The notes below the pieces were generated by a model, which did no database searches, was not told the origin of the DNA, and saw only the letters and a list, made by a program, of their open reading frames with translations. A DNA stretch of 64,000 bases from Halostagnicola kamekurae (GTDB lineage: Archaea; Halobacteriota; Halobacteria; Halobacteriales; Natrialbaceae): NCBI RefSeq assembly GCF_900116205.1, contig NZ_FOZS01000003.1, forward strand, positions 62,001 through 126,000, written 5' to 3'. Of this stretch, positions 8,639 through 25,248 are shown piece by piece. Position 1 is the first letter of the stretch, and each line of letters starts with the position of its first letter. A program made the position numbers and the translations under genes.

Positions 8639-10576
8639 TCACGCCGGGTCGACCGAGACAGTGGTTACGTCGCGGCGAAGGAACGGATCGGCGACCGCCG
8701 CGGGAACGTACAGCGTCCCCGCTCGAACGCTCTCGGCGAGCCGCGCGGTGACGCGGATCGAAACGTCGCCGCTCGAGACGACGACGGTCTCGTCGGCGTC
8801 GACCCCGATTTCGCGGGCGTCGGCCGGATTGATGCGGAGTTCACTCGATGTCTCCGCGTCGTGCGAGCCACTCGAGCGGCCGCCGGTCACCAACCAGAAC
8901 CCGTCCGTCGAACCTCGCACAATCGGCGGCTGGGCCGATCCGAACTGGGCCCGTCCGTCCGGGGTCTCGAAGGTCTCGCGGTAGAGCGCGCCGGGGCTAC
9001 CCGCCGGCCACCGCTCGCCCTCGAGTCCGAGGTCGTCGTAGCGAAGGCCGGCGTACGGCGGTGCGATTCGGCGGAGTTCGCCGAACGCCTCCGATACGTC
9101 TTCGTACTCGAACGCGCTCGGATTCTGTGTCAACTGACCGCCCAGTTCGGCGAGTATCCTGAAGTCCGACCGCGCTCGCGCTGGCGGCGTGGCGATGGGT
9201 GAGAGCCGCTGGACGCGCCGCTCGAGGTTCGTGAACGTCCCTGCCTTTTCGATGCCAGCGGCGGCCGGAAGCACGACGTCCGCGTGCTCGGTCGTCTCGT
9301 TGGCGGCCAGTTCGACGACGACGAGCGTCTCGAGCGCCCCCAGCCGTTCGCGAACCCACTCCGGGTCGCGCTTGGAAACGCCGGGGTTCTCGCCGACCAC
9401 GAGCGCCCCGCGAACGTCGTTGCCGAACGACTCGAGGAGTTCCGTCGCCGTCTTTCCCGGCGTTGACGGCGGCTCGACGCCCCACTCCGAGGCGATTCGA
9501 GCGCGGGCTCGCGAATCGGTCACCGGTTGGTGACCGGGGAGCCGGTCGGGAACGCACCCGGCGTCCGTCGCCCCCTGTTCGTTGGCGAGCCCGCGCAGGA
9601 CGTATAGACCGGCACCTCGACGCCCGAGGTTCCCCGTGAGCAAGAGCAGGTTGAGGAGCGCCCCAGAGGCGTTCGTCTCGCCGGCCGAGTTCTCGATACC
9701 GGTTCCGACGAGTCCGGCGACCCGGTCTGCAGCCGTTATCCGATCCGCGATCTCCTCGAGCGCACTCGACTCGACGCCCGCGGCCAGACGCGTTTCGTCG
9801 CGCTCGAGGTCGGTGATAGACGCTTCGAACTGTTCGAATCCCCGCGTCCGATTCTCGACGAACTCCCGGTCGATTCCCGCCCCGTCGTCGACGATTCGCG
9901 CGCTCAACAGATCGAATACCAGCGCGTCAGTCCCCGGTCGAGGAGTTAGATGGATATCGGCGAGTCGCGTCGTCCGGTTCCCGACGGGATCGACGTGAAC
10001 GAGCGTCGCTCCGTCGGTGACCGCCGGCCTAACGAAGCTGTTGAACGCGATCGGCTGTCGTTCGGCGGGGTTGGCACCCGCGACGACGATCACGTCGGCG
10101 TCGGTGAGGTCCTCGAGACCGTTCGTCGTCGCCGGCCAGCCGACCCGCTCTGAGAGCGCTCGAGTGGTCGAGACGTGACAGAGCCGCGAGCGGTTATCGA
10201 CGTTGTTCGTCCCGAGGATCCTCGCGAGTTTCTGGAGGAGGTAGTTCTCCTCGTTCGTACAGTGGGGCGCACCGAGAAACGCCAGCGCGTCGGGGCCGCG
10301 AGCCGCCAGTATCTCCTCGAACGATTCGGCGATCCGCTCGTAGGCGGTCGGCCACGAAACCGGCTGCAAGTCGCCGTTCTGGCGAATCAGCGGGTCCTCG
10401 AGTCGATCGTCCGGTGTCTCGAGTGCGCCGATTCCCTTCCGGCAGAGCCGACCGTTCGGATTGGCCGGCCCGACGACGCCGTTTGCGCGCACGCCGTTGG
10501 GCCCGGCTTGCAACCGACAGCCAACGCCACAGCGCGGACAGACGGTGTTCGGTTCGTTCGATTGGTGGTCGGGCAC
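8639..10576 (-). CDS. Second formate-dehydrogenase-like molybdoprotein
   Basis: A 645-residue molybdopterin oxidoreductase of the DMSO-reductase superfamily, closest in pattern to FdhA. An N-terminal [4Fe-4S] site is formed by C13, C16, C20 and C45. The molybdenum ligand cysteine and its neighbour histidine are kept (C133-H134 in 'RLCHVST'), and an arginine equivalent to the formate-binding one is present in 'YVLRGLANEQGATDAG'. The C-terminal molydopterin-dinucleotide domain starts near residue 540. It is about 110 residues shorter than the FdhA encoded upstream in the same operon (11323-13593), lacking that protein's N-terminal extension. Start is GTG at 10576, 7 bases after the DUF1641 gene. 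It could be a second formate oxidoreductase or a paralogue with another substrate. Confidence 0.82.
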   Translation of the reverse strand: MPDHQSNEPNTVCPRCGVGCRLQAGPNGVRANGVVGPANPNGRLCRKGIGALETPDDRLEDPLIRQNGDLQPVSWPTAYERIAESFEEILAARGPDALAFLGAPHCTNEENYLLQKLARILGTNNVDNRSRLCHVSTTRALSERVGWPATTNGLEDLTDADVIVVAGANPAERQPIAFNSFVRPAVTDGATLVHVDPVGNRTTRLADIHLTPRPGTDALVFDLLSARIVDDGAGIDREFVENRTRGFEQFEASITDLERDETRLAAGVESSALEEIADRITAADRVAGLVGTGIENSAGETNASGALLNLLLLTGNLGRRGAGLYVLRGLANEQGATDAGCVPDRLPGHQPVTDSRARARIASEWGVEPPSTPGKTATELLESFGNDVRGALVVGENPGVSKRDPEWVRERLGALETLVVVELAANETTEHADVVLPAAAGIEKAGTFTNLERRVQRLSPIATPPARARSDFRILAELGGQLTQNPSAFEYEDVSEAFGELRRIAPPYAGLRYDDLGLEGERWPAGSPGALYRETFETPDGRAQFGSAQPPIVRGSTDGFWLVTGGRSSGSHDAETSSELRINPADAREIGVDADETVVVSSGDVSIRVTARLAESVRAGTLYVPAAVADPFLRRDVTTVSVDPA

Positions 10577-10583
10577 GGTGTTG

Positions 10584-11321
10584 CTATCGTCTTCGAAGGC
10601 GGCGCCCTTGTGCCTTCAAGATCGCGACGACGTACCCGAGTCCGGCGCGGACGTCTCGGTTCGTGAGCTGTTTCAAAAACTCGAGAACGCCCACGGGCTT
10701 TGCGTTTCGCTCCGCCTCACCGACGGCTCCGAGAAGGCTGTTCAGCCCCCTCGCGGTGTCGTCGTCGATCTCGAGGGTCGAGAGGGTCTCCCCGAGGGCG
10801 ACGAGGTCCTCGAGGTGGCCGTCCCGCTGGAGGGCGAGAACGACATCCAGTGCCTCGACGATGTCGCTGCCGTCCGCCTCGAGCGTCGACGAGAGTTCCT
10901 CGACCTCCGCCGCGGAGAGCGAGTCGCCGAACCCGGTCGCGATCGTCGCGAAGTCCTCGAGGTGGCCCCCTCGCTGGAGGGCGAGGACGGTCTCGAGGGC
11001 GGCCGAGAGGTCGTCGGCGTTCTCGCCGAGATCCGTCGCCAGTTCGGCCGCCTCGTCGGTCGAGAGGCCGTCCGCAGCTTCGATGAGGTTCGCCGTCGAA
11101 GACGTTATCCGGTCGAGTTCGGCGTCGTCGGCGCTCGCGGCGATCAAAATTGCGGTCGTGAGCGCGTCGTCGAGTTCGTCGGTCCCCTCGACGAGTTCGG
11201 CGAGGTTCCCACCGTGGGCCTCGAGCGCCTCCTGCAGCGCCGCTTCTCCGCCGGTGTCGGGTTCCTCTTTGCGTGCAGCGTTCGTCGCCGAGTCGGGGTA
11301 GGAAGACTGTGGCTTTGCCAT
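10584..11321 (-). CDS. DUF1641 domain protein of FDH operon
   Basis: A 245-residue soluble, very acidic helical protein. Its C-terminus 'FLKQLTNRDVRAGLGYVVAI' matches the DUF1641 signature found beside formate dehydrogenase genes in many bacteria and archaea. The middle contains repeated amphipathic units such as 'ALETVLALQRGGHLEDFATI' and 'ALDVVLALQRDGHLEDLVAL', an internal duplication about 54 residues apart. The ATG at 11321 is preferred over an upstream GTG at 11333 because it sits one base after the fdhA stop (11323-11325). Its role in FDH function is unknown; position between two catalytic subunits suggests an assembly or bridging subunit. Confidence 0.75.
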   Translation of the reverse strand: MAKPQSSYPDSATNAARKEEPDTGGEAALQEALEAHGGNLAELVEGTDELDDALTTAILIAASADDAELDRITSSTANLIEAADGLSTDEAAELATDLGENADDLSAALETVLALQRGGHLEDFATIATGFGDSLSAAEVEELSSTLEADGSDIVEALDVVLALQRDGHLEDLVALGETLSTLEIDDDTARGLNSLLGAVGEAERNAKPVGVLEFLKQLTNRDVRAGLGYVVAILKAQGRRLRRR

Positions 11322-11322
11322 C

Positions 11323-13593
11323 TCAGTCGTCACCCGTGCTGGCTTCGAAGTCGGGGGTTCGAATCGGTTCGGACTCTCCCTCGTATGGGCTGATGTTGAC
11401 GGCCGAGACTTTGAACTCCGGCGTCGCTGCGGCGGGGTCTAAGTGCTCCTCGTCGGTGAGCTGGTTCACAGCGCTCTCGGCGAAGTGGATCGGAACGAAG
11501 ACGTTCTCCGGGCCGACCCGGTCGGTCACCTGCGCCGGCACGACGATCTCGCCGCGCCTGGATTCGACGGTCACCATGTCGCCGCCTTCGATGCCGTAGT
11601 TCGCGGCCGTGTCGGGGTGAATCTCGATGAAGTCACTCGGCATGTACTGCATGATTCCCTCCTCGCGGTGGGTCATCGTCCCCGTGTGGTACTGGTAGAG
11701 GACTCGGCCGGTGGTAAGCGTGAACGGATACTCGTCGTCGGGCGTTTCGGCCGGTTCGCTGTAGCCGATCCCCTGCAGGTTCGCCTTTCCGTCGTCGGTG
11801 TTGAACTCCTCCTCGTAGAGGCGTTCGGTGCCGGGGTGGTCCTCGTCCCAGCAGGGCCACTGGAGTCCGCCCTCGGCCTCGACGCGCTCGTGGGTCACGC
11901 CGCCGTACAGCGGCGTCAGGGAGTTTACCTCCTCCATGATCTCGGCCGTCGAGTCGTAGTTCCAGTCTCGCCCCATCCGGTTTGCAAGGTCCTGCAGGAT
12001 CTTCCAGTCGGGACGGGAGTCGCCCTTGGGCTCCATCACTTGCTTGACCATCTGGACGGTGCGGTCCGTGTTCGTGAACGTCCCTGTCTTCTCGACGAAC
12101 GAACACGCGGGGAGGACCACGTCTGCGTACTGGGCGGTCTCGTTGACGAAGAGGTCCTGAACGACGAGGAAGTCGAGATTCTCGAGGACCTCCTCGGCGT
12201 GATTGACGCCGGGTTCCGACACCGCCGCGTTCTCGCCGACGATGTACATCCCGCGGACGTCGTCGTCGTCGGCCGCGAGGAACATCTGGGTCGTGTAGTA
12301 GCCGTACTCCGGGGATATCTCGCAGTCCCAGGCGTCCTCGAACTTCGCGCGGATCTCGTCGTCGGCGATGTCCTGATAGCCGGGGAAGTTGTCCGGGAGC
12401 GGGCCCATGTCGCCGCCGCCGCCCTGGACGTTGTTCTGGCCGCGGAACGGCGAGACGCCCGCGCCGGGTTTGCCGAGGTTGCCGGTGATGGCGGCCAGGT
12501 TCCCCATCGCGATGACGTTCTCGGTCCCGTGGGAGTGTTCGGTGAGGCCGAGCGTCCAGCCGAAGACGCAACTGTCGGCCTCGGCGATGGTCTCCGCCGC
12601 GGAGACGATCTCCTCGTGGGGGACGCCGGTGACCTCCTCGACGCGCTCGGGCGTGAACTCCTGGACGGCCTCTCTGACGTCCTCGAAGCCCGTCGTTCGG
12701 TTCGCGACGAACTCCTCGTCGTAGAGGTCGTTTTCGATGATGTACCGGGTGATGCCGTTGATCCAGACAGCGTCGTAACCCGGTTTGACGCGGCTGTACT
12801 GAGTAGCGTACTCGGCGATCTGGACCTCTCGCGGGTCGAACACGACCAGATCGGCCCCGTCTCGGACGTTCTGTTTGATCCGGGTCGCGAGGACCGGATG
12901 CGCCTCCGTCGTGTTCGAGCCCGTGAGCAGGATGCAGTCTGCGAGCTCGAGGTCCTCGGTGCTGATCGACGCCGCGCCGTAGCCGTAGGTCTGGGCGAGC
13001 CCCGCCACCGTCGAGGAGTGACAGAGGCGGTTGCAGTTGTCGATGCTGTTCGTCTCGAGGACCTGCCGGGCGAACTTGCCCATCAGGTAGTTGTCCTCGT
13101 TGGTCGCCTTCGAGGAGGCGATCATCGACAGCGCCTCGCCGCCGTGTTCGTCCTTGATCGAGCCGAGTCCCTCGACCACCCGCGAGAGCGCCTCGTCCCA
13201 CGTAGCTTCACGGAACTCGCCGTTCGCGTCGCGAACCAGCGGCGTCGTCAGCCGGTCGTCGGAGTTGATGAAGTCGTAGCCGAACTTGCCTTTCACGCAC
13301 GTCGAGATGCCGTTGACCGGCGCGTCCTCCTCGTCGGTCGGGCGCGCAGCGAGGATCTCCTCGCCGTCGGAGTAGAGGTCGAACCGGCAGCCGACGGCGC
13401 AGTAGCCACAGGTCGTGTCGGCGACGTTCAGTTCCTCGAGTCGCTTGTCGCCGATCGACTGGGCGATCTCGAACAGCTTCCCCTCCGGGAGCGTTTCGGC
13501 GGCGACCCCCTCGGCGACGTGTTCGACGTTCTCGAGCGCCTGAGATTTCGCGCGTTCCATGTAGCCGGCGACGCCGTCTAAGTCGTCGCTCAT
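11323..13593 (-). CDS. fdhF: Formate dehydrogenase catalytic (alpha) subunit
   Basis: A 756-residue molybdenum/tungsten bis-MGD enzyme subunit that oxidises formate to CO2 in the cytoplasm (no signal peptide). The [4Fe-4S] ligands are C62, C65, C69 and C99, followed by the electron-relay lysine in 'CVKGKFG'. The metal ligand is C191 with H192 ('NRLCHSS'), and the formate-binding arginine lies in 'SPFRGQNNVQGGGGDMG'. The C-terminal pterin-binding domain starts near 'FTLTTGRVLYQYHTGTMTH'. A cysteine, not selenocysteine, is used. The ATG at 13593 overlaps the upstream stop as ATGA, arguing for translational coupling; an in-frame TTG two codons earlier is less likely. A short N-terminal helical extension precedes the Fe-S domain. 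Confidence 0.93.
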   Translation of the reverse strand: MSDDLDGVAGYMERAKSQALENVEHVAEGVAAETLPEGKLFEIAQSIGDKRLEELNVADTTCGYCAVGCRFDLYSDGEEILAARPTDEEDAPVNGISTCVKGKFGYDFINSDDRLTTPLVRDANGEFREATWDEALSRVVEGLGSIKDEHGGEALSMIASSKATNEDNYLMGKFARQVLETNSIDNCNRLCHSSTVAGLAQTYGYGAASISTEDLELADCILLTGSNTTEAHPVLATRIKQNVRDGADLVVFDPREVQIAEYATQYSRVKPGYDAVWINGITRYIIENDLYDEEFVANRTTGFEDVREAVQEFTPERVEEVTGVPHEEIVSAAETIAEADSCVFGWTLGLTEHSHGTENVIAMGNLAAITGNLGKPGAGVSPFRGQNNVQGGGGDMGPLPDNFPGYQDIADDEIRAKFEDAWDCEISPEYGYYTTQMFLAADDDDVRGMYIVGENAAVSEPGVNHAEEVLENLDFLVVQDLFVNETAQYADVVLPACSFVEKTGTFTNTDRTVQMVKQVMEPKGDSRPDWKILQDLANRMGRDWNYDSTAEIMEEVNSLTPLYGGVTHERVEAEGGLQWPCWDEDHPGTERLYEEEFNTDDGKANLQGIGYSEPAETPDDEYPFTLTTGRVLYQYHTGTMTHREEGIMQYMPSDFIEIHPDTAANYGIEGGDMVTVESRRGEIVVPAQVTDRVGPENVFVPIHFAESAVNQLTDEEHLDPAAATPEFKVSAVNISPYEGESEPIRTPDFEASTGDD

Positions 13594-14558
13594 GGCCAAT
13601 CACCGTCGCGGTCGAACGCCCAGTCATCTGTGTCGTCGGTCCCGCGTGTGTCGTCGGCCCCACTCTCTGCGGAGGAAGCCGATTCACCGTTGGTCGTCTC
13701 TTCGGTCCGTTTTTTCGGGGTCATCGGCCCCTTGATCGCGCCGGAGTTCTCGTAGCTCTTGCCGACGCTGTTTTTCTGCGTGAAGCCGGGGAGGGGAATC
13801 GTCGTCGCGTCTTCGATCCCCTTCTCGACGAGCGAACCGGTCGGGCAGACGGTCGCACAGTGACCGCAGGAGACGCAGGTCGAGTCTTCCATCGTTTCGG
13901 CTCCGTTCTGGAAGCCGATGCGCGTGTCCTGGCCCGATCCCTCCATTCGAAGCACGCCTTCGACCTGCACGTCGTTGCAGGCCTCGACACAGCGGTTACA
14001 GAGGATGCACTTGTTGCGGTCGATCTGAATGAACGACGAGGAGTCGTCGAGCGGTTCGTACTCCTCGCGGTCGTCGAGGACGCCGTAGCGCGGTTCCTCG
14101 ACCTCCTGTTCGATCGCGGCGTCCTGTAGCTCACAGCGGCCGTTCTTCCCGCAGGTCGTACACCGCAGGTTGTGATCCGACAGCACCAGATCGAGGTTGA
14201 CATCGCGCGCCTGTGAGGCGTCCTCCGCGTCGGTTCGTATCGTAAGGCCGTCCTCGGCGGGGAAGCTACAGGCCGGAACGGTGCCGTGTTCGTCGGTTTC
14301 GACCATGCAGGTTCGACACTCGCTTCGCGGACCGATCCCCTCTCGCCCGTAGTGACAGAGCGCGGGGACGTACTCGTCGGTCTCGACCGCTTCGACGGCA
14401 TCGATCAGCGTCGCCCCCGAGTCGACCGACACCTCGGTGCCGTCGACAGTGACCGTCGCGGGCGCGTCGCCGCCGACCGACGGATCGGTCGCGGTTCCCG
14501 GTGCGATTTCCTCTGTGAGCGGCGGTACGTCGACTGTTTCCTGGCGTTCTGAACTCAT
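13590..14558 (-). CDS. NuoG/HoxU-like iron-sulfur subunit of FDH
   Basis: A 322-residue electron-transfer subunit. It begins with a disordered leader, then a [2Fe-2S] ferredoxin-like domain ('ALCHYGREGIGPRSECRTCM'), a NuoG-type His/Cys Fe-S segment ('DHNLRCTTCGKNGRCELQ'), and a double [4Fe-4S] ferredoxin domain ('CILCNRCVEAC' and 'CVSCGHCATVCPTG'). This order is that of the N-terminal part of NuoG and of the beta/gamma subunits of soluble FDHs. It would pass electrons between the catalytic subunit and the NuoF-like subunit. A Ser/Thr/Asp-rich tail of about 60 residues follows the last cluster. It overlaps the next gene by four bases and follows the NuoF-like gene after four bases. Confidence 0.9.
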   Translation of the reverse strand: MSSERQETVDVPPLTEEIAPGTATDPSVGGDAPATVTVDGTEVSVDSGATLIDAVEAVETDEYVPALCHYGREGIGPRSECRTCMVETDEHGTVPACSFPAEDGLTIRTDAEDASQARDVNLDLVLSDHNLRCTTCGKNGRCELQDAAIEQEVEEPRYGVLDDREEYEPLDDSSSFIQIDRNKCILCNRCVEACNDVQVEGVLRMEGSGQDTRIGFQNGAETMEDSTCVSCGHCATVCPTGSLVEKGIEDATTIPLPGFTQKNSVGKSYENSGAIKGPMTPKKRTEETTNGESASSAESGADDTRGTDDTDDWAFDRDGDWP

Positions 14559-14562
14559 GTGA

Positions 14563-16050
14563 TCATCCCTCCACGGGGTCGAGACAGCTGCCGGCCGGAC
14601 ACTGTCCCTCGGCGTGCGCTTCGAACTCCGATTCGAACTCCTCGAGTGCCGTCCGGGCCGGCCGGCCCGCCTGCACGCCGAACGAGCAGAGACTCGAGGT
14701 CGTCAGTACGTCGGTCAGTTCCTCGATTCCATCCGTATCGTACTCGCCTTCGTACACGTCTCGCAGGAGCCCGACGAGTTGTGTCGTGCCCTCGCGACAC
14801 GGGACGCACCGTCCGCAGTTTTCCTCGGCGGCATACTGCGTTCGCTGACCGACGAACTCGACGACACAGTGGTCGTCGGTGAGCAAGTGAACGACTCCCT
14901 CGGTGCCGAGGTCGGCGGCCGACAGCGCGTCCGGTCCGACGCCCACGTCCAGATCGCTCGTAATGCCGCCGAACGTCCCGCCCACGGCGGCCGCCTTGAA
15001 CGTCCCAGAAACGTCGACGGCGTCGACGGCGGTCTCGAGCGTCTCCGTCTCCGGAACTTCGACCGTCGCGGTGGGCGTATCGTCGCTCGTCACTGTCACT
15101 AGGCGCGTTTGCGGGACGGATCCCGTCCTGAGTGCCACCGCGAGGTGGGCGACCGTTCGCGGGGTGTGAACGAGCGTCGGCTGGCCGAAGAGTCCGACCT
15201 CGTCGAGGCCCGGCGGTCGAATCCGAGCCTCGAGTCGGTGGTTGCCTTCGATCGCTTCGATCGCCATCGACGGCTCGGCCGCCCGGTACGCTGCGGGACC
15301 TGTAGCGACGTCGATATCGATCGGCGCGTCCGGATAGTTTTCGATCGCCTCGCGAACCCCCTCCACGGCGCGGTCGTCGTCGGCGGACGCGTAGACGACG
15401 ATCCGTTCGGCGTCGACGGTGCGAGCGAGCGCAACAGCCCCCTCGAGCACGTCGAAGGGGGCGCTCGAGAGCAGGAGGGCGTCCGCGGGGTTCCCGTGGG
15501 CGTTGACGACCACGGCTTTGTCGCCGTCGCCGGACCGGACGGACCGCCACGTCTCGCCCACCGGGTCGTCGTGACAGATGTCGCCCCAGCCTCGCCCGCG
15601 GAGGGTCGCTCCCGTCTCCAGTACCGTCTCCGGACTCGAGTCGACGAACCCTCCCGCAGCCTCGTGGTCGGCCGGGTCGGTCGGCCGACGCCAGCCGCAG
15701 GCACCGAGGACCTCCCGGTCGCCAGCACGAAGGCCCGGTAGCTGCGCGGTCGGCAGACTCGAGGGATTCTGCTCGTGCTCGACCACGGCGTCCGGTTCCG
15801 CCGACACGACGTCGCCGGTTTCGTCGACGCTCGAGACGACCGCCTCGAGCCGTTCGACCGAACACTGTTCGTAGAAGGCAGTGGTTCCCGCACGCGTAGC
15901 CACAAGGAGAGGTTCCAGAGCCGCTATCCCCGTCGATCCGACGCTCACGACTGTACTGTCGGTTTCTGAAACCGAACGCAAAAGATCCTGATCCGGGTCA
16001 GAACCGGAAATCCGAATTACCGGTCCGTTACCTGATATGATAGCAGTCAT
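14563..16050 (-). CDS. NuoF-like subunit with degenerate FMN/NAD motifs
   Basis: A 495-residue protein related to NuoF/HoxF, the first gene of the FDH operon. The C-terminal SLBB and [4Fe-4S] region is well kept: 'ENCGRCVPCREGTTQL' with the fourth cysteine in 'SLCSFGVQAG'. In contrast, the flavin/NADH region is altered: the usual GRGGAGFPxG reads 'GRGWGDICHDDPVG', the NADEGEPG segment reads 'VVNAHGNPADALLL', and the glycine-rich AYICGEETAL reads 'AYRAAEPSMAIEAIEG'. 'EVGLFGQPTLVHTPRTVAHL' still marks the family. The protein may no longer bind FMN or NAD. The ATG at 16050 is chosen because upstream in-frame residues are basic and not protein-like. A TATA-like AATTTATGATAATG lies about 35-47 bases upstream. 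Confidence 0.85.
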   Translation of the reverse strand: MTAIISGNGPVIRISGSDPDQDLLRSVSETDSTVVSVGSTGIAALEPLLVATRAGTTAFYEQCSVERLEAVVSSVDETGDVVSAEPDAVVEHEQNPSSLPTAQLPGLRAGDREVLGACGWRRPTDPADHEAAGGFVDSSPETVLETGATLRGRGWGDICHDDPVGETWRSVRSGDGDKAVVVNAHGNPADALLLSSAPFDVLEGAVALARTVDAERIVVYASADDDRAVEGVREAIENYPDAPIDIDVATGPAAYRAAEPSMAIEAIEGNHRLEARIRPPGLDEVGLFGQPTLVHTPRTVAHLAVALRTGSVPQTRLVTVTSDDTPTATVEVPETETLETAVDAVDVSGTFKAAAVGGTFGGITSDLDVGVGPDALSAADLGTEGVVHLLTDDHCVVEFVGQRTQYAAEENCGRCVPCREGTTQLVGLLRDVYEGEYDTDGIEELTDVLTTSSLCSFGVQAGRPARTALEEFESEFEAHAEGQCPAGSCLDPVEG

Positions 16051-16175: not shown

Positions 16176-16386
16176 GTCTAGTTGAGCCAGTGTGAGGAAC
16201 GAGCAGGTTATTGAACTCCTTATTTAAAAATGTTGCCAGACCTGCTTAGCGATGGAATGACGCCGATCGAGGAGGTGCAGAACTAGACAGTGTGCTGGTA
16301 ATAGCCGGTACAAATGAAGTTTTGGGAATAGGGTATTTGTGCAATGGATGGTGTCATTTATTCTACCTCGTTTTCCATAATGATTG

Positions 16387-17673
16387 ATGACACCAATAAC
16401 AGCCAACAAGAATCGATGGCTGATCGCAGCGTCCGCGATCGCGATCCACCTGTCGATCGGGAGCATATACGCGTACAGCATCTATCAAAACCCGCTGAAC
16501 GAGACGCAGGGCTGGAGCACCTCGAGCGTGACGCTCGCGTTCTCGATCGCGATCTTCGTGCTCGGGCTGACCGCCGCCTTCCTCGGTAAATACGTCGAGA
16601 AGTACGGGCCTCGAGCGGCCGGATTGGCGGCGGCAGTCCTGTACGGTCTCGGAATGATCGGCTCGGGGCTCAGCATACGGCTCGGGAGCCTCCCTCTGTT
16701 CCTTTTCACCTTCGGCGTCGTCGGCGGGATGGGACTGGGGATCGGATACATCTCCCCCATCGGGACGCTCGTCGAGTGGTTCCCGGATCGGCGCGGAATG
16801 GCGACCGGACTCGCGGTCATGGGCTTCGGGGCGGGTGCGCTGGTGACCGGCCCGCTCGGGAATTTTCTGATACAGAACGCCGGCGTCGCGACGACGTTTT
16901 TCGTCCTGGGCGGGCTGTACTTCGTCCTGATGTCGCTCGGCGCGAGCTACCTCGCCAAACCGCCGGACGGGTGGCTTCCCGAGGGGATGGAAGACGAGGA
17001 GAACGCACACGAGAAGGCAAAGAGCGCGCTCTCGGGTCTCGACAGTCTCACAGCAGCGCAGGCGCGAACGACGCCGCGCTTCTGGATGGTGTGGCTCATC
17101 GTCTTCATCAACGTCTCCGCGGGGATCATGCTGCTGGCCTACGCGTCGCCGATGCTCCAGCAGATCGGCGGCGCGACCGCAACGACCGCCGCGTTCATCA
17201 CCGGCTACATCGGGATCTTCAACGGCGGCGGTCGGATCGCCTGGTCGACGCTCTCCGACTACATCGGTCGGACGAACACCTACGGCGCGTTCATGGTCAT
17301 CCAGATAGCGGCTTTCTTCGCCATGCCCCAGCTTACGGGCGTCTGGATGCTTGCGGTGACCATCTTCGTCGTCATCACGTGTTACGGCGGCGGGTTCGCC
17401 TGCCTCCCGGCGTACCTCAGCGACCTCTTCGGAACGGCGGAGGTGAGCGCGATCCACGGCTACGCCCTCACCGCGTGGGGCGTCGCGGGCGTCGTCGGCC
17501 CACAGGTCGCCTCGCTCGTCCTCGAGTCGACCGGCACCTACACGAACGCGCTCTACGTCATGAACGGGGCGCTCGTCGTCGGATTGATCACGGTCCTTGC
17601 CCTTCGGTGGCGGATCGGACGGCTCAAAGAGAGCAGCGATGCCTCCGTCGGTGCCACTGCGTCGACTGACTGA
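16387..17673 (+). CDS. MFS transporter, oxalate/formate antiporter (OFA) family
   Basis: A 428-residue twelve-helix major facilitator. The OFA-type start 'IAIHLSIGSIYAYSIYQNPL' and 'GMGLGIGYISPIGTLVEWF' followed by 'PDRRGMATGLAVMGFGAGAL' is the family hallmark. Helices 7-12 follow a cytoplasmic loop with charged residues near 200-220. OFA carriers exchange carboxylates such as oxalate and formate across the membrane. Divergent placement from the FDH operon suggests formate or a related acid as substrate, which is inference. The ATG at 16387 is taken; a TTG one codon earlier is an unlikely start. Repeats at 16119-16175 lie upstream. Confidence 0.85.
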   Translation: MTPITANKNRWLIAASAIAIHLSIGSIYAYSIYQNPLNETQGWSTSSVTLAFSIAIFVLGLTAAFLGKYVEKYGPRAAGLAAAVLYGLGMIGSGLSIRLGSLPLFLFTFGVVGGMGLGIGYISPIGTLVEWFPDRRGMATGLAVMGFGAGALVTGPLGNFLIQNAGVATTFFVLGGLYFVLMSLGASYLAKPPDGWLPEGMEDEENAHEKAKSALSGLDSLTAAQARTTPRFWMVWLIVFINVSAGIMLLAYASPMLQQIGGATATTAAFITGYIGIFNGGGRIAWSTLSDYIGRTNTYGAFMVIQIAAFFAMPQLTGVWMLAVTIFVVITCYGGGFACLPAYLSDLFGTAEVSAIHGYALTAWGVAGVVGPQVASLVLESTGTYTNALYVMNGALVVGLITVLALRWRIGRLKESSDASVGATASTD

Positions 17674-19703: not shown

Positions 19704-20306
19704 GTGGAGTTCGACGGGACGTTCACCATCGAGGACGTGTCGATGGAGGAGGTGTGGCTGGCGCTCTCGGACCCGGTACTGATCAAGCAGTGCCTTCCGG
19801 GGTGTCAGTTCATGACTCGAGTCGAAGACCCGGACGACGTCGACTTCGAGGCGCGTCGGGAGAGCGAACCCGACGACGATCCGGCGACGCTGCCGGAGGC
19901 CGACCTCGAGGACATCTCGGAACGAGCCTTCGAGGAGGGGGCCCACTACGCGGCGTTGCTCCAGCTCAGCGTCGGGAGCGTCAAACCGAGCTTCCAGACG
20001 GTCGTCACGATCGACGAACGCGAGTTCCCGGTGATGAACGCCTCGGGCGAGGGGAGCGCGAGCGACTCCTCGTTCGAGATGGCCTCGGGGATGACCCTCG
20101 TCGAGACCGACGAGGGCGTCGACATCGAGTGGCACGCCGAAGCCGACGTGTTCGGCACGATCGCACAGATGGGACAGCGCGTCATCAGTCCGGTCGCGAA
20201 CAGAGTCGTCAACCGGTTCTTCAGCAACGTCGAGGATCGGCTGACTGAAGTCGCCGACGAAAACGACGGCGGCGGTATTCGCGACCGAATTCAGGATCTA
20301 CTATAG
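19704..20306 (+). CDS. coxG: CoxG-like SRPBCC protein
   Basis: A 200-residue SRPBCC-fold protein of the CO-dehydrogenase subunit G family. It begins 'MEFDGTFTIEDVSMEEVWLA' and has the signature 'PVLIKQCLPGCQ' near residues 29-40 (usual form LxxCxPG). An acidic insertion around residues 45-80 is unlike bacterial CoxG, probably halophilic adaptation. CoxG proteins help recruit or mature the molybdenum hydroxylase at the membrane. Translation starts at GTG 19704; the TATA-like TTAATAAG lies about 37 bases upstream. It is the first gene of a collinear coxG-S-L-M-D-E cluster. Confidence 0.85.
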   Translation: MEFDGTFTIEDVSMEEVWLALSDPVLIKQCLPGCQFMTRVEDPDDVDFEARRESEPDDDPATLPEADLEDISERAFEEGAHYAALLQLSVGSVKPSFQTVVTIDEREFPVMNASGEGSASDSSFEMASGMTLVETDEGVDIEWHAEADVFGTIAQMGQRVISPVANRVVNRFFSNVEDRLTEVADENDGGGIRDRIQDLL

Positions 20307-20405
20307 CACCATGAACACGCCAGACTCGCACAGCCCGGCCGTCCGGCCGAAACACCGACTCCGTCGCTTCTCGCCGACTCGTCGCCACACCGGTCACACC
20401 CAGGT

Positions 20406-20900
20406 ATGGCAGCACACGACATCACACTCACGGTAAACGGGACAGAACACGAACTCACAGTACAGTCGCGGGAGTTGCTGGTCCACGCACTCCGGGACCA
20501 ACTCGAGTACACCGGCCCGAACGTCGGCTGCGAGAGCACCACGTGCGGGGCCTGTACCGTCCACATCGACGGCAAAGCCGCCAAATCCTGTACGGTCCTG
20601 GCGGTTCAGGCCGACGAACAGGAGATCACGACCGTCGAGGGGCTCGCCGAGGACGGCGAGTTCCACCCCATTCAGGAGGGGTTTCAGGAGGAACACGGCC
20701 TGCAGTGTGGCTACTGCACGCCCGGTATGATGATGACCGCCACCCAGTTGCTCGCGGAGAACCCCGATCCCGACGAGGACGAGATCCGCGAGGCGCTCGA
20801 AGGGAACCTCTGTCGGTGCACCGGCTACCAGAACATCGTCAACGCGGTCGAAAACGCCGCGGAGCAGATGGACGGCGCGACCGCGCGGGGGGACGATTGA
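20406..20900 (+). CDS. coxS: CODH-like small subunit, two [2Fe-2S] clusters
   Basis: A 164-residue molybdenum-hydroxylase small subunit, normal length. The plant-type [2Fe-2S] cluster uses '[21 protein letters not shown]'-type spacing (residues about 41-61), and the second cluster '[10 protein letters not shown]' and 'CRCTGYQNI' (about 102-142). It transfers electrons from the molybdenum site to FAD in the medium subunit. It ends one base before the large-subunit ATG, consistent with co-translation. Confidence 0.93.
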
Positions 20901-20901
20901 G

Positions 20902-23280
20902 ATGAGCGTCGAATCCGTCGATCCCGACGAGGTCGACGCCGCCGACATCCTCGGCTCGGCCATCGAGCGCCGCGAGGACCCCGCCCTACTGACCGGCGAC
21001 GCGGAGTACACCGACGACATTCAGCTGCCGCAGATGGCCCACATGGTGGTCAAGCGGAGCCAACACGCCCACGCTGCTATCAACGACGTCGATACCGCCG
21101 CCGCCGAGGAGATGGACGAGGTCGTCGCGGTCTTCACCGCCGAGGACATCGACGTCCCCGGGAACCTCCCGGTCGGGTGGCTGCTCGACACCCTAGAGCA
21201 GGTCGACCACCCGATTCTCGCGCGGGATCGAGTTCGCTATCAGGGCGACGCCATCGCCGTCGTCGTCGCCGAGGAGCGCTACGCCGCCCACGACGCCGTC
21301 GACGCCATCGACGTCGACTACGAGCGCCGCGAGGCGGTTACCAGTCCTCGAGCGGCCCTGAACGGCGCGGCCGACCTCCACGACGACGCGCCGGGAAACA
21401 CCGCCTTCGAGTGGGAAATCGGCGACGAAACGAAGACGGAGCAGGCCTTCGCCGACGCGAGTCACACCGCGAGCGTCGACCTCGAGAATCAGCTGTTGAT
21501 TCCGAACGCGATGGAGCCACGCGGTGCCGTCGCGGACTACAACCCGTCGACAGAGGAACTCGAGGTCGCGATGACCACCCAGAATCCACACTTACACCGC
21601 CTGCTCATGTCGGGGGTCATCGACCACCCCGAACACAAACTGCAGATCCGCGCGCCGGACGTCGGCGGCGGGTTCGGGAGCAAGATCCACCACTACGCGG
21701 ACGAGGCGCTGGCGGCGTGGACGGCGAAGCAACTCGAGCGCCCGGTGAAGTGGATCGCGACGCGCTCGGAGACCTACCTGACCGACGCACAGGGTCGGGG
21801 CCACGAAACGCACGGCGAGATCGCGATGGACGACGACGGGGACATCGTCGGGCTGAAAATCGAGACGGACGCGAACCTCGGCGCGTACCTGTCGACGTTC
21901 GCCCCGGCGGTTCCGACCTACCTCTACGGTACCCTCCTGTCGGGCCAGTACGACATCCCGGCGATCCACTGCGAGGTCACTGGCGCGTTCACGAACGTCC
22001 CGCCGGTCGACGCCTACCGCGGCGCGGGACGGCCCGAGGCGTCCTACGTCGTCGAACGGCTGATCGACCTCGCCGCAAGCGAGATGGAGATGGACCCGGC
22101 CGAGTTCCGACGACAGAACTTCGTCCCCGACGACGCGTTTCCCTACGAGACGCAGGTCGCGGTCGTCTACGACAGCGGCGACTACGAGAAGACACTCGAT
22201 CGGGCCCTCGAGATGCTCGACTACGAGGACTTCCGCGAACGCCAGGCCGAGGCTCGCGAGGACGGCAAGTATCTCGGCGTCGGCTTCTCGGCGTACATCG
22301 AGGCCTGCGGGCTCGCACCGTCGGAACTGGCCGGCCAACTCGGCGCGCAGGCGGGCCTGTGGGAATCGTCGCTGGTGCGCTTTCACCCGTCCGGAACCGT
22401 CACCGCGTTCTGTGGCACGTCGGGCCACGGCCAGGGCCACGACACCACCTACGCGCAGATCGTCGCCAACGAACTCGGCATCGAGTACGACGACGTGGAC
22501 GTCGTCGAGGGCGACACCGACGAGATTCCACACGGCATGGGAACCTACGGCTCCCGGTCGGCCGCGGTCGGCGGGAGTTCGCTCGTCAAGAGCGCCCGGA
22601 AGGTCGTCGAGAAGGCGAAATCCATCGCTGCTCACCAGCTCGAGGCCGACGAGGACGACCTCGAGTTCGAAGCCGGTGAGTTCCGCGTCGCCGGGGCGCC
22701 CGACCGATCCATGCACATTCAGGAGATCGCCCAGCAGGCCTACCTCGCCCACGACATGCCCGGAGAGATGGAGCCGGGGCTCGAGGCGACCAGCTTCTAC
22801 GACCCCGACAACTTCGTGTTCCCGTTCGGGATGCACGCCGCTGTCGTCGAAGTCGATCCGGACACCGGCGAGCTCGAGTTCGAGCGGTACGTCGCCGTCG
22901 ACGACGTGGGCAATCAGATCAACCCGAAGATCGTCGAGGGACAGATCCACGGCGGCGTCGCTCAGGGTATCGGGCAGGCCCTCTATGAGGGTGCGGAGTA
23001 CGACGACAACGGGCAGCTGCTGACCGGTTCGATGCAGGACTACGCCGTTCCGAAAGCCGAGCACATCCCGGAGATGGAGACCGATTCCACGGTGACGCCG
23101 TCGCCGCACAATCCGCTGGGCGTCAAAGGCGTCGGCGAGGCCGGCACGATCGCCGCACCCCAGGCCGTCGTCAACGCCGTCGTCGACGCGCTGGAACCGT
23201 TCGGCGTCGATCACATCGACATGCCGTTGAAAGACGAGAAGATCTGGCGGGCCGTCCACGAAAACGGAGGTGAGGAGTGA
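20902..23280 (+). CDS. coxL: CODH-like large subunit, form II motif
   Basis: A 792-residue xanthine-oxidase-family molybdenum subunit. It holds the cofactor-binding 'GGGFGSKIHHYADEALAAW' segment, the active-site loop A371-Y372-R373-G374-A375-G376-R377, and a late 'GVKGVGEAGTIAAPQAVVNA' with the catalytic glutamate near residue 755. True CO-oxidising form I enzymes carry AYRCSFR with the Cu-binding cysteine; here the loop is AYRGAGR, form II, so CO may not be the physiological substrate. Its stop overlaps the medium subunit start as TGATG. Surface composition is very acidic. Confidence 0.92.
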   Translation: MSVESVDPDEVDAADILGSAIERREDPALLTGDAEYTDDIQLPQMAHMVVKRSQHAHAAINDVDTAAAEEMDEVVAVFTAEDIDVPGNLPVGWLLDTLEQVDHPILARDRVRYQGDAIAVVVAEERYAAHDAVDAIDVDYERREAVTSPRAALNGAADLHDDAPGNTAFEWEIGDETKTEQAFADASHTASVDLENQLLIPNAMEPRGAVADYNPSTEELEVAMTTQNPHLHRLLMSGVIDHPEHKLQIRAPDVGGGFGSKIHHYADEALAAWTAKQLERPVKWIATRSETYLTDAQGRGHETHGEIAMDDDGDIVGLKIETDANLGAYLSTFAPAVPTYLYGTLLSGQYDIPAIHCEVTGAFTNVPPVDAYRGAGRPEASYVVERLIDLAASEMEMDPAEFRRQNFVPDDAFPYETQVAVVYDSGDYEKTLDRALEMLDYEDFRERQAEAREDGKYLGVGFSAYIEACGLAPSELAGQLGAQAGLWESSLVRFHPSGTVTAFCGTSGHGQGHDTTYAQIVANELGIEYDDVDVVEGDTDEIPHGMGTYGSRSAAVGGSSLVKSARKVVEKAKSIAAHQLEADEDDLEFEAGEFRVAGAPDRSMHIQEIAQQAYLAHDMPGEMEPGLEATSFYDPDNFVFPFGMHAAVVEVDPDTGELEFERYVAVDDVGNQINPKIVEGQIHGGVAQGIGQALYEGAEYDDNGQLLTGSMQDYAVPKAEHIPEMETDSTVTPSPHNPLGVKGVGEAGTIAAPQAVVNAVVDALEPFGVDHIDMPLKDEKIWRAVHENGGEE

Positions 23281-24164
23281 TGTTCCCGGACGAGTTCGAC
23301 TACCACCGCGCGGAGAGCGTCGACGACGCGCTTGATCTGCTGGCGGAGTACCCCGACGCGGAGGTCCTCGCGGGCGGTCACAGCCTGCTCCCGACGATGA
23401 AAAACGGGCTCGCGAAGCCCGACGTCGTCGTCGACATCGGCCACATCGAGTCAATGCAGGGAATCGACAGAAACGGCGATGCGACGAGCATCGGCGCGTT
23501 GACGACCTACGCCGAGATCGACGACGACGAGGAGCTCTGGGCGGACGCGACGGTGCTAACGGAGGCCGCGAGCGAGATCGGCGACACGCAGGTCCGCAAC
23601 CGCGGGACGATCGGCGGCAACCTCGCCCACTCGGACCCGGCGTCAGATCTGCCGGGCGCGGCCATCGCGAGCGACCTGACGCTAGTCGTCGAGGGGCCAG
23701 ACGGGGAGCGCCGGATCGACGCCGACGAGTTCTTCGTCGCGATGTACATGACCGACCTCGCGGAGGACGAACTCCTCACCCGAATCGAGGTGCCCCGTGG
23801 CGACGGCGCGACGAGCGGCGCGTACGTGAAAAAGCCCAGTCCGTCGTCGGGGTACGCGCTCGTCGGCGTCGCCGCCCAGGTGCAGGTCGACGACGGGACG
23901 GTCACGACCGCCCGCATCGGTGCCAACGGGGTGATGGACCACGCAGTCCGCCTCGAGCCCGTCGAAGACGCGATCGAGGGCGAGCGCCTGAGCGACGACG
24001 CCGTCTCGGCGGCGGCCGAACGCGCCGCCGACGATCTCGAGGAAGCGATGATGATGGACGACCTTCAGGCGTCGTCGGAGTTCCGCTCGCACCTCCTCGA
24101 AACGTACACGAAGCGGGCGCTCGAGCGGGCCGCAGAGCGCGCCGACGCGACCGTCACAGCGTGA
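23280..24164 (+). CDS. coxM: CODH-like medium subunit, FAD-binding
   Basis: A 294-residue FAD-binding subunit of the PCMH type. The flavin motifs are 'LAGGHSLLPTMKNGLAKP' (residues about 35-52) and 'GTIGGNLAHSDPASDLPG' (about 109-126), matching AGGHS and TIGGN. The C-terminal CO_deh_flav_C region follows. The ATG at 23280 overlaps the large-subunit stop by one base; a GTG one codon earlier is less likely. It accepts electrons from the small subunit and passes them to an external acceptor, probably quinone. Confidence 0.92.
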   Translation: MFPDEFDYHRAESVDDALDLLAEYPDAEVLAGGHSLLPTMKNGLAKPDVVVDIGHIESMQGIDRNGDATSIGALTTYAEIDDDEELWADATVLTEAASEIGDTQVRNRGTIGGNLAHSDPASDLPGAAIASDLTLVVEGPDGERRIDADEFFVAMYMTDLAEDELLTRIEVPRGDGATSGAYVKKPSPSSGYALVGVAAQVQVDDGTVTTARIGANGVMDHAVRLEPVEDAIEGERLSDDAVSAAAERAADDLEEAMMMDDLQASSEFRSHLLETYTKRALERAAERADATVTA

Positions 24165-24300
24165 TCCCCAGCGCGCGGTTCGGAGGGGTGGTCCGTTCGA
24201 AACCGTCGGAAGGGGCGCCAGATCCGGAGGCTGCGGCGGATCGGCGCTTTCGCCACCAGCCTCGACATCGGCGTGAGCGGTCGCACGAGAGGTGGGAGAC

Positions 24301-25248
24301 GTGAGCGACGATACTGGTTTCGAAGCGGAGAGCGACAGCGACGGCTTCGGCGACGTGACCGAGGCCGAGCTTCGAGCGGCCTTCGAATCGACGGAGTACG
24401 TCGCCGAAGACGACATCGTGACGACGGTCCTGCTTTCGCTCCGACTCGGTCGCCCGCTGCTCGTCGAGGGCGATCCCGGCGCGGGCAAGACCGAACTCGC
24501 GAAAGTGCTCGCGGACGGGTTCCACACCGACCTCATACGGCTGCAGTGTTACGAGGGCCTAGCCGCTGAGAACGCGCTCTACGAGTGGAACTACACGAAG
24601 CAGTTACTCGCTGTGCAGGCCGACGAGGCCGGCGTCGACGGGAGTTCGTCGGTGTTCACCGAGGAGTACCTGTTGGAACGCCCGCTGTTACAGGCGCTCT
24701 CGAGCGAGGGCGAGCGTCCCCCGGTCTTGCTCATCGACGAGGTCGACAGAGCCGACGAGGAGTTCGAAGCGCTGTTGCTCGAGGTGCTGTCTGACTTTCA
24801 GGTGTCGATCCCCGAACTGGGGACCGTACAGGCGACGACGCCGCCTATCGTCGTCATCACCTCGAACCGCACGCGGGGGTTGAGCGACGCGCTGAAACGG
24901 CGCTGTCTGTACCTGCACCTCGAGCCGCCGGACTTCGAGAAGGAGCGGGCGATCGTCGAGCGGAAAGTCCCCGAACTGGACGGCGCCGTCGCGACGGAGC
25001 TGTGTGCGATTACCCAGCGACTTCGGGAGGAGCCGTTCCGCAAACAGCCGGGCGTCGCGGAGACGCTCGACTGGGCGCGGGCGGTCGCGCAACTACGGGC
25101 CGAAGACGGTGACGAACCGCTCTCGACGGTCGACATCGAGCGGACGATCGGCTGCCTGCTGAAAGAGGTCGCGGATGTTCAGCGGGTCGACGAAGGGTTG
25201 CTCGAGGCGCTCGCCGAGGCTGCCCGAACTGCGCGGGCCGAAGAGTGA
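24301..25248 (+). CDS. coxD: MoxR-type AAA ATPase, CoxD-like
   Basis: A 315-residue AAA+ ATPase of the MoxR group. Walker A is 'GDPGAGKTE', Walker B 'VLLIDEVDRAD', and sensor 1 'VVITSNRTRGLSDAL'. In bacterial cox clusters CoxD partners CoxE to mature the Cu/Mo active site of the hydroxylase. Two in-frame GTG starts (24292 and 24301) are possible; 24301 has GAGGTGGGAG just upstream as ribosome-binding sequence. The 136-base gap after coxM and the following overlap with the VWA gene place it in the same cluster. Confidence 0.85.
   Translation: MSDDTGFEAESDSDGFGDVTEAELRAAFESTEYVAEDDIVTTVLLSLRLGRPLLVEGDPGAGKTELAKVLADGFHTDLIRLQCYEGLAAENALYEWNYTKQLLAVQADEAGVDGSSSVFTEEYLLERPLLQALSSEGERPPVLLIDEVDRADEEFEALLLEVLSDFQVSIPELGTVQATTPPIVVITSNRTRGLSDALKRRCLYLHLEPPDFEKERAIVERKVPELDGAVATELCAITQRLREEPFRKQPGVAETLDWARAVAQLRAEDGDEPLSTVDIERTIGCLLKEVADVQRVDEGLLEALAEAARTARAEE

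Follow-up and report, generated by a model that had tools for sequence, protein, structure and literature searches.

A haloarchaeal formate dehydrogenase, probably menaquinone-linked, with a cofactor-poor NuoF-like subunit

The 64,000-nucleotide stretch of Halostagnicola kamekurae DNA analysed here (the window) carries a formate dehydrogenase (FDH) operon led by a gene whose product is automatically annotated as an NADH-ubiquinone oxidoreductase F-type protein. An earlier note had pointed out that three signatures for FMN and NADH binding are replaced in this NuoF-like protein, and had proposed that the FDH is not NAD-dependent, instead passing electrons to another acceptor such as a ferredoxin or using the subunit as a scaffold. 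The locus thus raises the question of whether the enzyme uses NAD and, if it does not, where the electrons from formate go. We found no paper describing this NuoF-like subunit, in a literature search that covered subscription journals poorly.

The five-gene operon and the fold of its first product

The NuoF-like gene is the first of a tight run of five, with junctions of a few bases or overlapping (Table 1), confirming the position that the earlier note gave it. The catalytic subunit FdhA scored 831 bits against TIGR01591 (cut-off 666) and has the [4Fe-4S] site and, at the Mo site, the Cys/Sec-His and Arg of a metal-dependent formate dehydrogenase alpha subunit. In the second FdhA-like protein, RGLANEQG stands where RGQNNVQG is expected in the active-site loop, and in some of its relatives (e.g. 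L065, L066, L071) a pattern search found no RLCH motif of the Mo-ligand cysteine; this protein may be a non-catalytic paralogue. The operon contains neither a ferredoxin gene nor a gene for a NuoE/FdsG-type [2Fe-2S] subunit, and the one PF01257 match in the genome is partial and falls in a frame of 417 residues remote from the FDH locus. A second PF01512 protein of the genome, with a GAGGAGFP loop, is encoded on another contig and was rejected as part of the FDH system. The divergent transporter gene upstream encodes a relative of the oxalate/formate family. Near the operon lies a cluster resembling CO-dehydrogenase/xanthine-dehydrogenase-like molybdenum hydroxylases, in which Pfam recognised CoxG; the small, large and FAD subunits were named by eye, and an AAA ATPase follows.

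Table 1 Features of the FDH locus, in window positions
Feature	Position	Strand	Residues	Evidence or detail
NuoF-like subunit (P0001)	14563..16050	minus		PF10589 and PF01512 above cut-off; AlphaFold2; Foldseek to NfnB/HydB/FdsB
N-terminal thioredoxin-like region	15820..15954	minus	about 46-90	HydB GCxGxC replaced by GSTGIA (alignment)
Loop 1	15547..15597	minus	165-181	GRGGAGFPTGxKW replaced by GRGWGDICHDDPVGETW
Loop 2	15466..15513	minus	193-208	NADEGEPG replaced by NAHGNPAD; 4-residue deletion
Loop 3	15223..15294	minus	266-289	CGEETAL replaced by AAEPSMA, then conserved EAIEGNHRLEAR
Loop 4	15154..15180	minus	304-312	VNNVET replaced by VHTPRT
N3 [4Fe-4S] ligands	14686..14817	minus	C425, C428, C431, C468	all four kept
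NuoG N-terminal-like Fe-S subunit (P0002)	13590..14558	minus		one [2Fe-2S] and three [4Fe-4S] ligand sets complete
FdhA, catalytic Mo/W-bisPGD formate dehydrogenase subunit (P0003)	11323..13599	minus		C193-H194, R386-G-Q388
DUF1641 (ForE family) protein (P0004)	10584..11333	minus		PF07849, 39.9 bits (cut-off 21)
Second FdhA-like subunit (P0005)	8639..10576	minus		active-site loop RGLANEQG
MFS carboxylate transporter (P0006), divergent	16384..17673	plus		NF049980 L-lactate MFS, 416.9 bits (cut-off 320)
Molybdenum hydroxylase cluster	19704-25245	plus		

The longest open reading frame of the NuoF-like gene runs from 16089 to 14563 on the minus strand; a start at Met14 (base 16050) is likely, since homologues begin near the equivalent of this residue and the model is of very low confidence over residues 2-15. 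By both sequence and fold the protein is related to the NuoF/HydB family (Complex1_51K and NADH_4Fe-4S). Profile searches gave 73 bits for PF10589, the N3 [4Fe-4S] domain, 44.1 bits for PF01512, the Nuo51 FMN domain (cut-off 31.2), and just 94 against the 559 of the NuoF equivalog TIGR01959. Its nearest named relative, from Halostagnicola sp. A56, matches it at 90% over 419 residues. An AlphaFold2 model built with 63 relatives in the alignment reached a pLDDT of 92.7 and a pTM of 0.92, and Foldseek matched it to chains of NfnB, a bifurcating tungsten aldehyde oxidoreductase subunit, HydB and FdsB with TM scores of 0.78–0.84 over the query. The model predicts that the NuoF/HydB fold is kept, N-terminal domain included. 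As for the SLBB region, which the earlier note had considered retained, there is no separate Pfam match in the protein, and that claim holds insofar as this stretch can be aligned with HydB/NuoF and is confidently modelled.

HydB and NfnB of electron-bifurcating complexes are the closest solved proteins in both fold (TM about 0.83) and sequence, sharing the N-terminal Trx-like domain and the C-terminal CPxGxC. Unlike these, the haloarchaeal protein is shorter, ending just after CPxGxC, has lost the FMN pocket and the N-terminal [2Fe-2S] cysteines, and has no FeFe or NiFe hydrogenase partner.

Loss of the FMN and NADH motifs across a haloarchaeal clade

Residue changes were read from an alignment to E. 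coli NuoF. In loop 1, G64, A65, G66 and F67 are replaced by W168, G169, D170 and I171, followed by a four-residue insertion, and K72 corresponds to T180. Loop 2 has H198 in place of D92 and lacks E93-M94-E95-P96, and in loop 3 G181 and E183 become A271 and P273, with E182 kept as E272. These replacements agree with what the earlier note reported, which nevertheless understated the change: a fourth FMN-site motif, absent from that account, has H308, T309 and R311 for N217, N218 and E220, and the N-terminal [2Fe-2S] cysteines (HydB-type GCxGxC in the alignment) are also gone. The pocket residues that remain are GRG (165-167), W181, N196, D203, E272 and T312. The residues that contact NADH through water in Aquifex NuoF are E95, D103, E97 and E184 (PMC6560083); assuming a numbering offset of two, the loop 2 deletion would take in E95 and E97, and the retained D203 and E272 would be the counterparts of D103 and E184. 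The C-terminal [4Fe-4S] domain, by contrast, is kept as the earlier note stated, with all four N3 cysteines and the PF10589 match.

We compared 118 non-redundant haloarchaeal NuoF-like sequences, 110 of the FDH type (L021 was assigned to this type, not to the HydA-linked one) and 8 linked to a HydA-like (hydrogenase) gene. All four motifs (GRGGAGFPxGxKW, NADExEPG, CGEETAL and VNNVET) are replaced throughout the haloarchaeal FDH clade, with altered pockets in 110 of 110 proteins. The controls are intact: every motif is kept in the 8 HydA-linked proteins, as in all 15 NuoF-like sequences from other archaeal families of the same phylum, two of which adjoin fused NuoG-FdhA genes (L139, L146). In a tree obtained by a quick, short search without bootstrap, and of unsure deeper order, the 60 altered sequences included lie on one side of a branch (SH-aLRT 100, length 1.38), and a single pocket change is needed. 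The altered proteins thus form one clade on the sequences compared, and the trait is clade-wide in haloarchaea, not local decay; the earlier note had missed this, together with the DUF1641 gene in the operon and the loss of N3 in part of the clade.

Sequencing error or a pseudogene is excluded by the identical change in all haloarchaeal FDH-type relatives and by open frames in nearly all of them. The altered loops look like the product of rebuilding under selection and not of drift, because the replacement motifs are themselves conserved: R166, G167, D170, E278, R289, R311 and T312 are invariant in 64 sequences. The most degenerate copies (L041:2946-4496 and L042:7771-9360) have lost most pocket motifs, and no FdhA-like gene was found adjoining them.

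Two operon types, the Fe-S wire and DUF1641

The FDH loci fall into two types. Type A, to which the operon studied here belongs, has separate NuoF-, NuoG- and FdhA-like genes followed by DUF1641 (24 loci, most also with a second FdhA). Type B has a NuoF-like gene and one fused NuoG-FdhA of about 1100 residues, with no DUF1641 in the operon. All four N3 cysteines are kept in every type A member, whereas one or two are lost in 25 of 47 type B sequences; two are missing in 22 of these (NSGRCVPGREG), a loss that forms one subclade in the tree. Most type B loci have no conserved extra partner, a MobA-like neighbour (named by eye) being present in a few. On Haloarcula marismortui pNG700 (L151), genes for a glutathione-independent formaldehyde dehydrogenase and a protein of the creatininase family lie a few genes away from a type B FDH pair, a neighbourhood that suggests a role in C1 disposal.

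In all groups tested, no sequence lacks any of the 16 NuoG-like cluster ligands, the four cysteines of the FdhA cluster or the catalytic Cys, His and Arg. As this holds for the N3-less group too, the enzyme probably remains active, and only its NuoF-like subunit has lost cofactors. With a broken N3, this subunit cannot be a normal electron conduit and can hardly be more than a scaffold.

Among PDB entries, FdhA matches ForC1 (YjgC) of Bacillus subtilis best. ForC belongs to the menaquinone-linked formate dehydrogenases ForCE1/ForCE2 (PDB 8rqz, 8rr0, 9gzq; structure summarised in PMC13397495) and is the nearest solved relative of FdhA; its DUF1641 partner ForE is needed for menaquinone reduction (PMC8808070). 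Like ForCE, the haloarchaeal system has the same five Fe-S clusters, here across the NuoG-like protein and FdhA, a DUF1641 partner in the operon (PF07849; synteny in 24 loci) and no heme or membrane subunit gene, as befits a soluble enzyme. Unlike ForCE, it has a NuoF-like subunit and a second FdhA-like subunit, and its DUF1641 protein only weakly resembles ForE1 (E = 0.037 in a direct profile comparison with 8rqz_A); the predicted structure of this protein (pLDDT 45) was not used. We have not filed the enzyme as ForCE, because its FdhA has CH/RGQ at the active site instead of the CQ/RGH of characterised ForC (PMC8808070) and because the NuoG-like clusters, fused N-terminally to the catalytic domain in ForC, are encoded by a separate gene in type A. 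By analogy, it probably works like ForCE.

DUF1641 was found in 105 of 188 haloarchaeal genomes. Away from FDH, in other haloarchaea (L152-L163), the adjoining gene encodes a sulfide:quinone-oxidoreductase-like Pyr_redox_2 protein in all 10 loci scanned. In 4 of 4 tested, type III sulfide:quinone reductase was the best NCBIfam model, though with scores short of its strict cut-off, and one of these proteins matched solved sulfide:quinone oxidoreductases at 6e-66. DUF1641 therefore accompanies two different quinone-linked enzymes. MenB is above cut-off in the H. kamekurae genome.

Destination of the electrons

The NAD-dependent FdsABG/FdhAB enzymes of Cupriavidus, Rhodobacter and Methylorubrum likewise combine FdhA, a NuoG-like Fe-S arm and a NuoF-like beta subunit, and FdsB shares the fold of our model (TM about 0.78). 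The haloarchaeal enzyme differs in having lost the FMN/NADH motifs and N-terminal [2Fe-2S] cysteines and in lacking a NuoE/FdsG gene in the operon. From the motif loss throughout the clade, with the partners' Mo and Fe-S sites invariant, we infer that this FDH is very probably not NAD-linked. In this respect the earlier proposal is well supported; its example of ferredoxin is less so, as the DUF1641/ForE-like gene of the operon points to menaquinone instead.

We propose that a NuoF/HydB-fold subunit of a cytoplasmic Mo/W FDH lost its FMN/NADH and N-terminal [2Fe-2S] sites in one haloarchaeal clade and was retained to cap the NuoG-like Fe-S arm. Electrons from formate would pass from the Mo site through the FdhA clusters to the NuoG-like clusters and leave without a flavin. 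In this operon menaquinone is the most likely acceptor, reduced, as in Bacillus ForCE, at a site that the DUF1641 protein would organise. Assembly and shielding of the clusters would fall to the NuoF-like subunit, and possibly electron transfer through N3. On balance, the enzyme is best read, with modest confidence, as a soluble FDH that has a cofactor-poor NuoF cap and is probably linked to menaquinone. This reading is supported by the clade-wide pocket loss, the intact Fe-S/Mo wire, the DUF1641 gene, the ForC1 match, the sulfide:quinone-oxidoreductase-like neighbours of DUF1641 elsewhere and MenB; the weak ForE1 match, the CH/RGQ signature of FdhA, the DUF1641-free type B and the retained GRG, N196 and T312 speak against it.

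DUF1641 does not explain the pocket loss, since type B lost the same pocket without it and no DUF1641 match turned up anywhere in several type B genomes (e.g. G057, G117, G118, G131, G142, G143); the two are thus separate events. For type B, ferredoxin is a plausible acceptor, and the pocket loss shared by these DUF1641-free relatives makes it a serious, if rather unlikely, rival for the operon studied here too: with FMN gone, N3 would be exposed and single electrons would pass to a halophilic ferredoxin docked at the vacated site, DUF1641 being only structural. This exit is supported by the invariance of N3 in type A and by genomes such as G057, which have type B but lack DUF1641. Against it, N3 is broken in half of type B with the rest of the enzyme kept, the operon has no ferredoxin gene, and the partners of DUF1641 elsewhere are quinone-linked. 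Menaquinone through DUF1641 is thus, with modest confidence, the best single acceptor for this operon, with ferredoxin second.

The subunit itself could be read in two other ways. Its pocket may have been rebuilt, not lost, so that different residues hold a flavin or some other nucleotide such as NAD(P) or F420. The invariant R166, G167, D170, E278, R289 and R311 do suggest a constrained site, within an intact predicted fold that keeps GRG, N196, D203, E272 and T312; conserved salt bridges could equally fill it, however. Such rebuilding is improbable, given that the lysine, the GAGF turn, both VNNVET asparagines and the acidic NADE/EP segment have disappeared and that, of the two main loops, one carries an insertion and the other a deletion. 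Still less probable is a relic, in this operon as elsewhere, with no redox role and heading for loss. Stepwise disappearance of cofactors, from the FMN site and N-terminal cluster to N3 in a subclade, would fit that course, as would the L041 and L042 copies that lack an adjoining FdhA, but nearly all relatives have open frames, the altered motifs are highly conserved and the N3 ligands are invariant in type A.

The F-type annotation would encourage models in which haloarchaeal formate oxidation is NAD-linked, and the evidence argues against NAD use for the whole clade. The proteins provide a natural series of flavoprotein subunits losing their cofactors with the rest of the electron wire intact. 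More tentatively, with the balance slightly against it, they may represent an FDH class whose NuoF fold was stripped stepwise, first of the FMN site and N-terminal cluster and then of N3, and now serves as a flavin-free cap. In such a class the DUF1641 module through which electrons leave would be shared with sulfide:quinone oxidoreductase, and DUF1641 would be a general quinone-coupling module for soluble dehydrogenases. The evidence also makes DUF1641 testable as a quinone-coupling module common to FDH and sulfide:quinone oxidoreductase.
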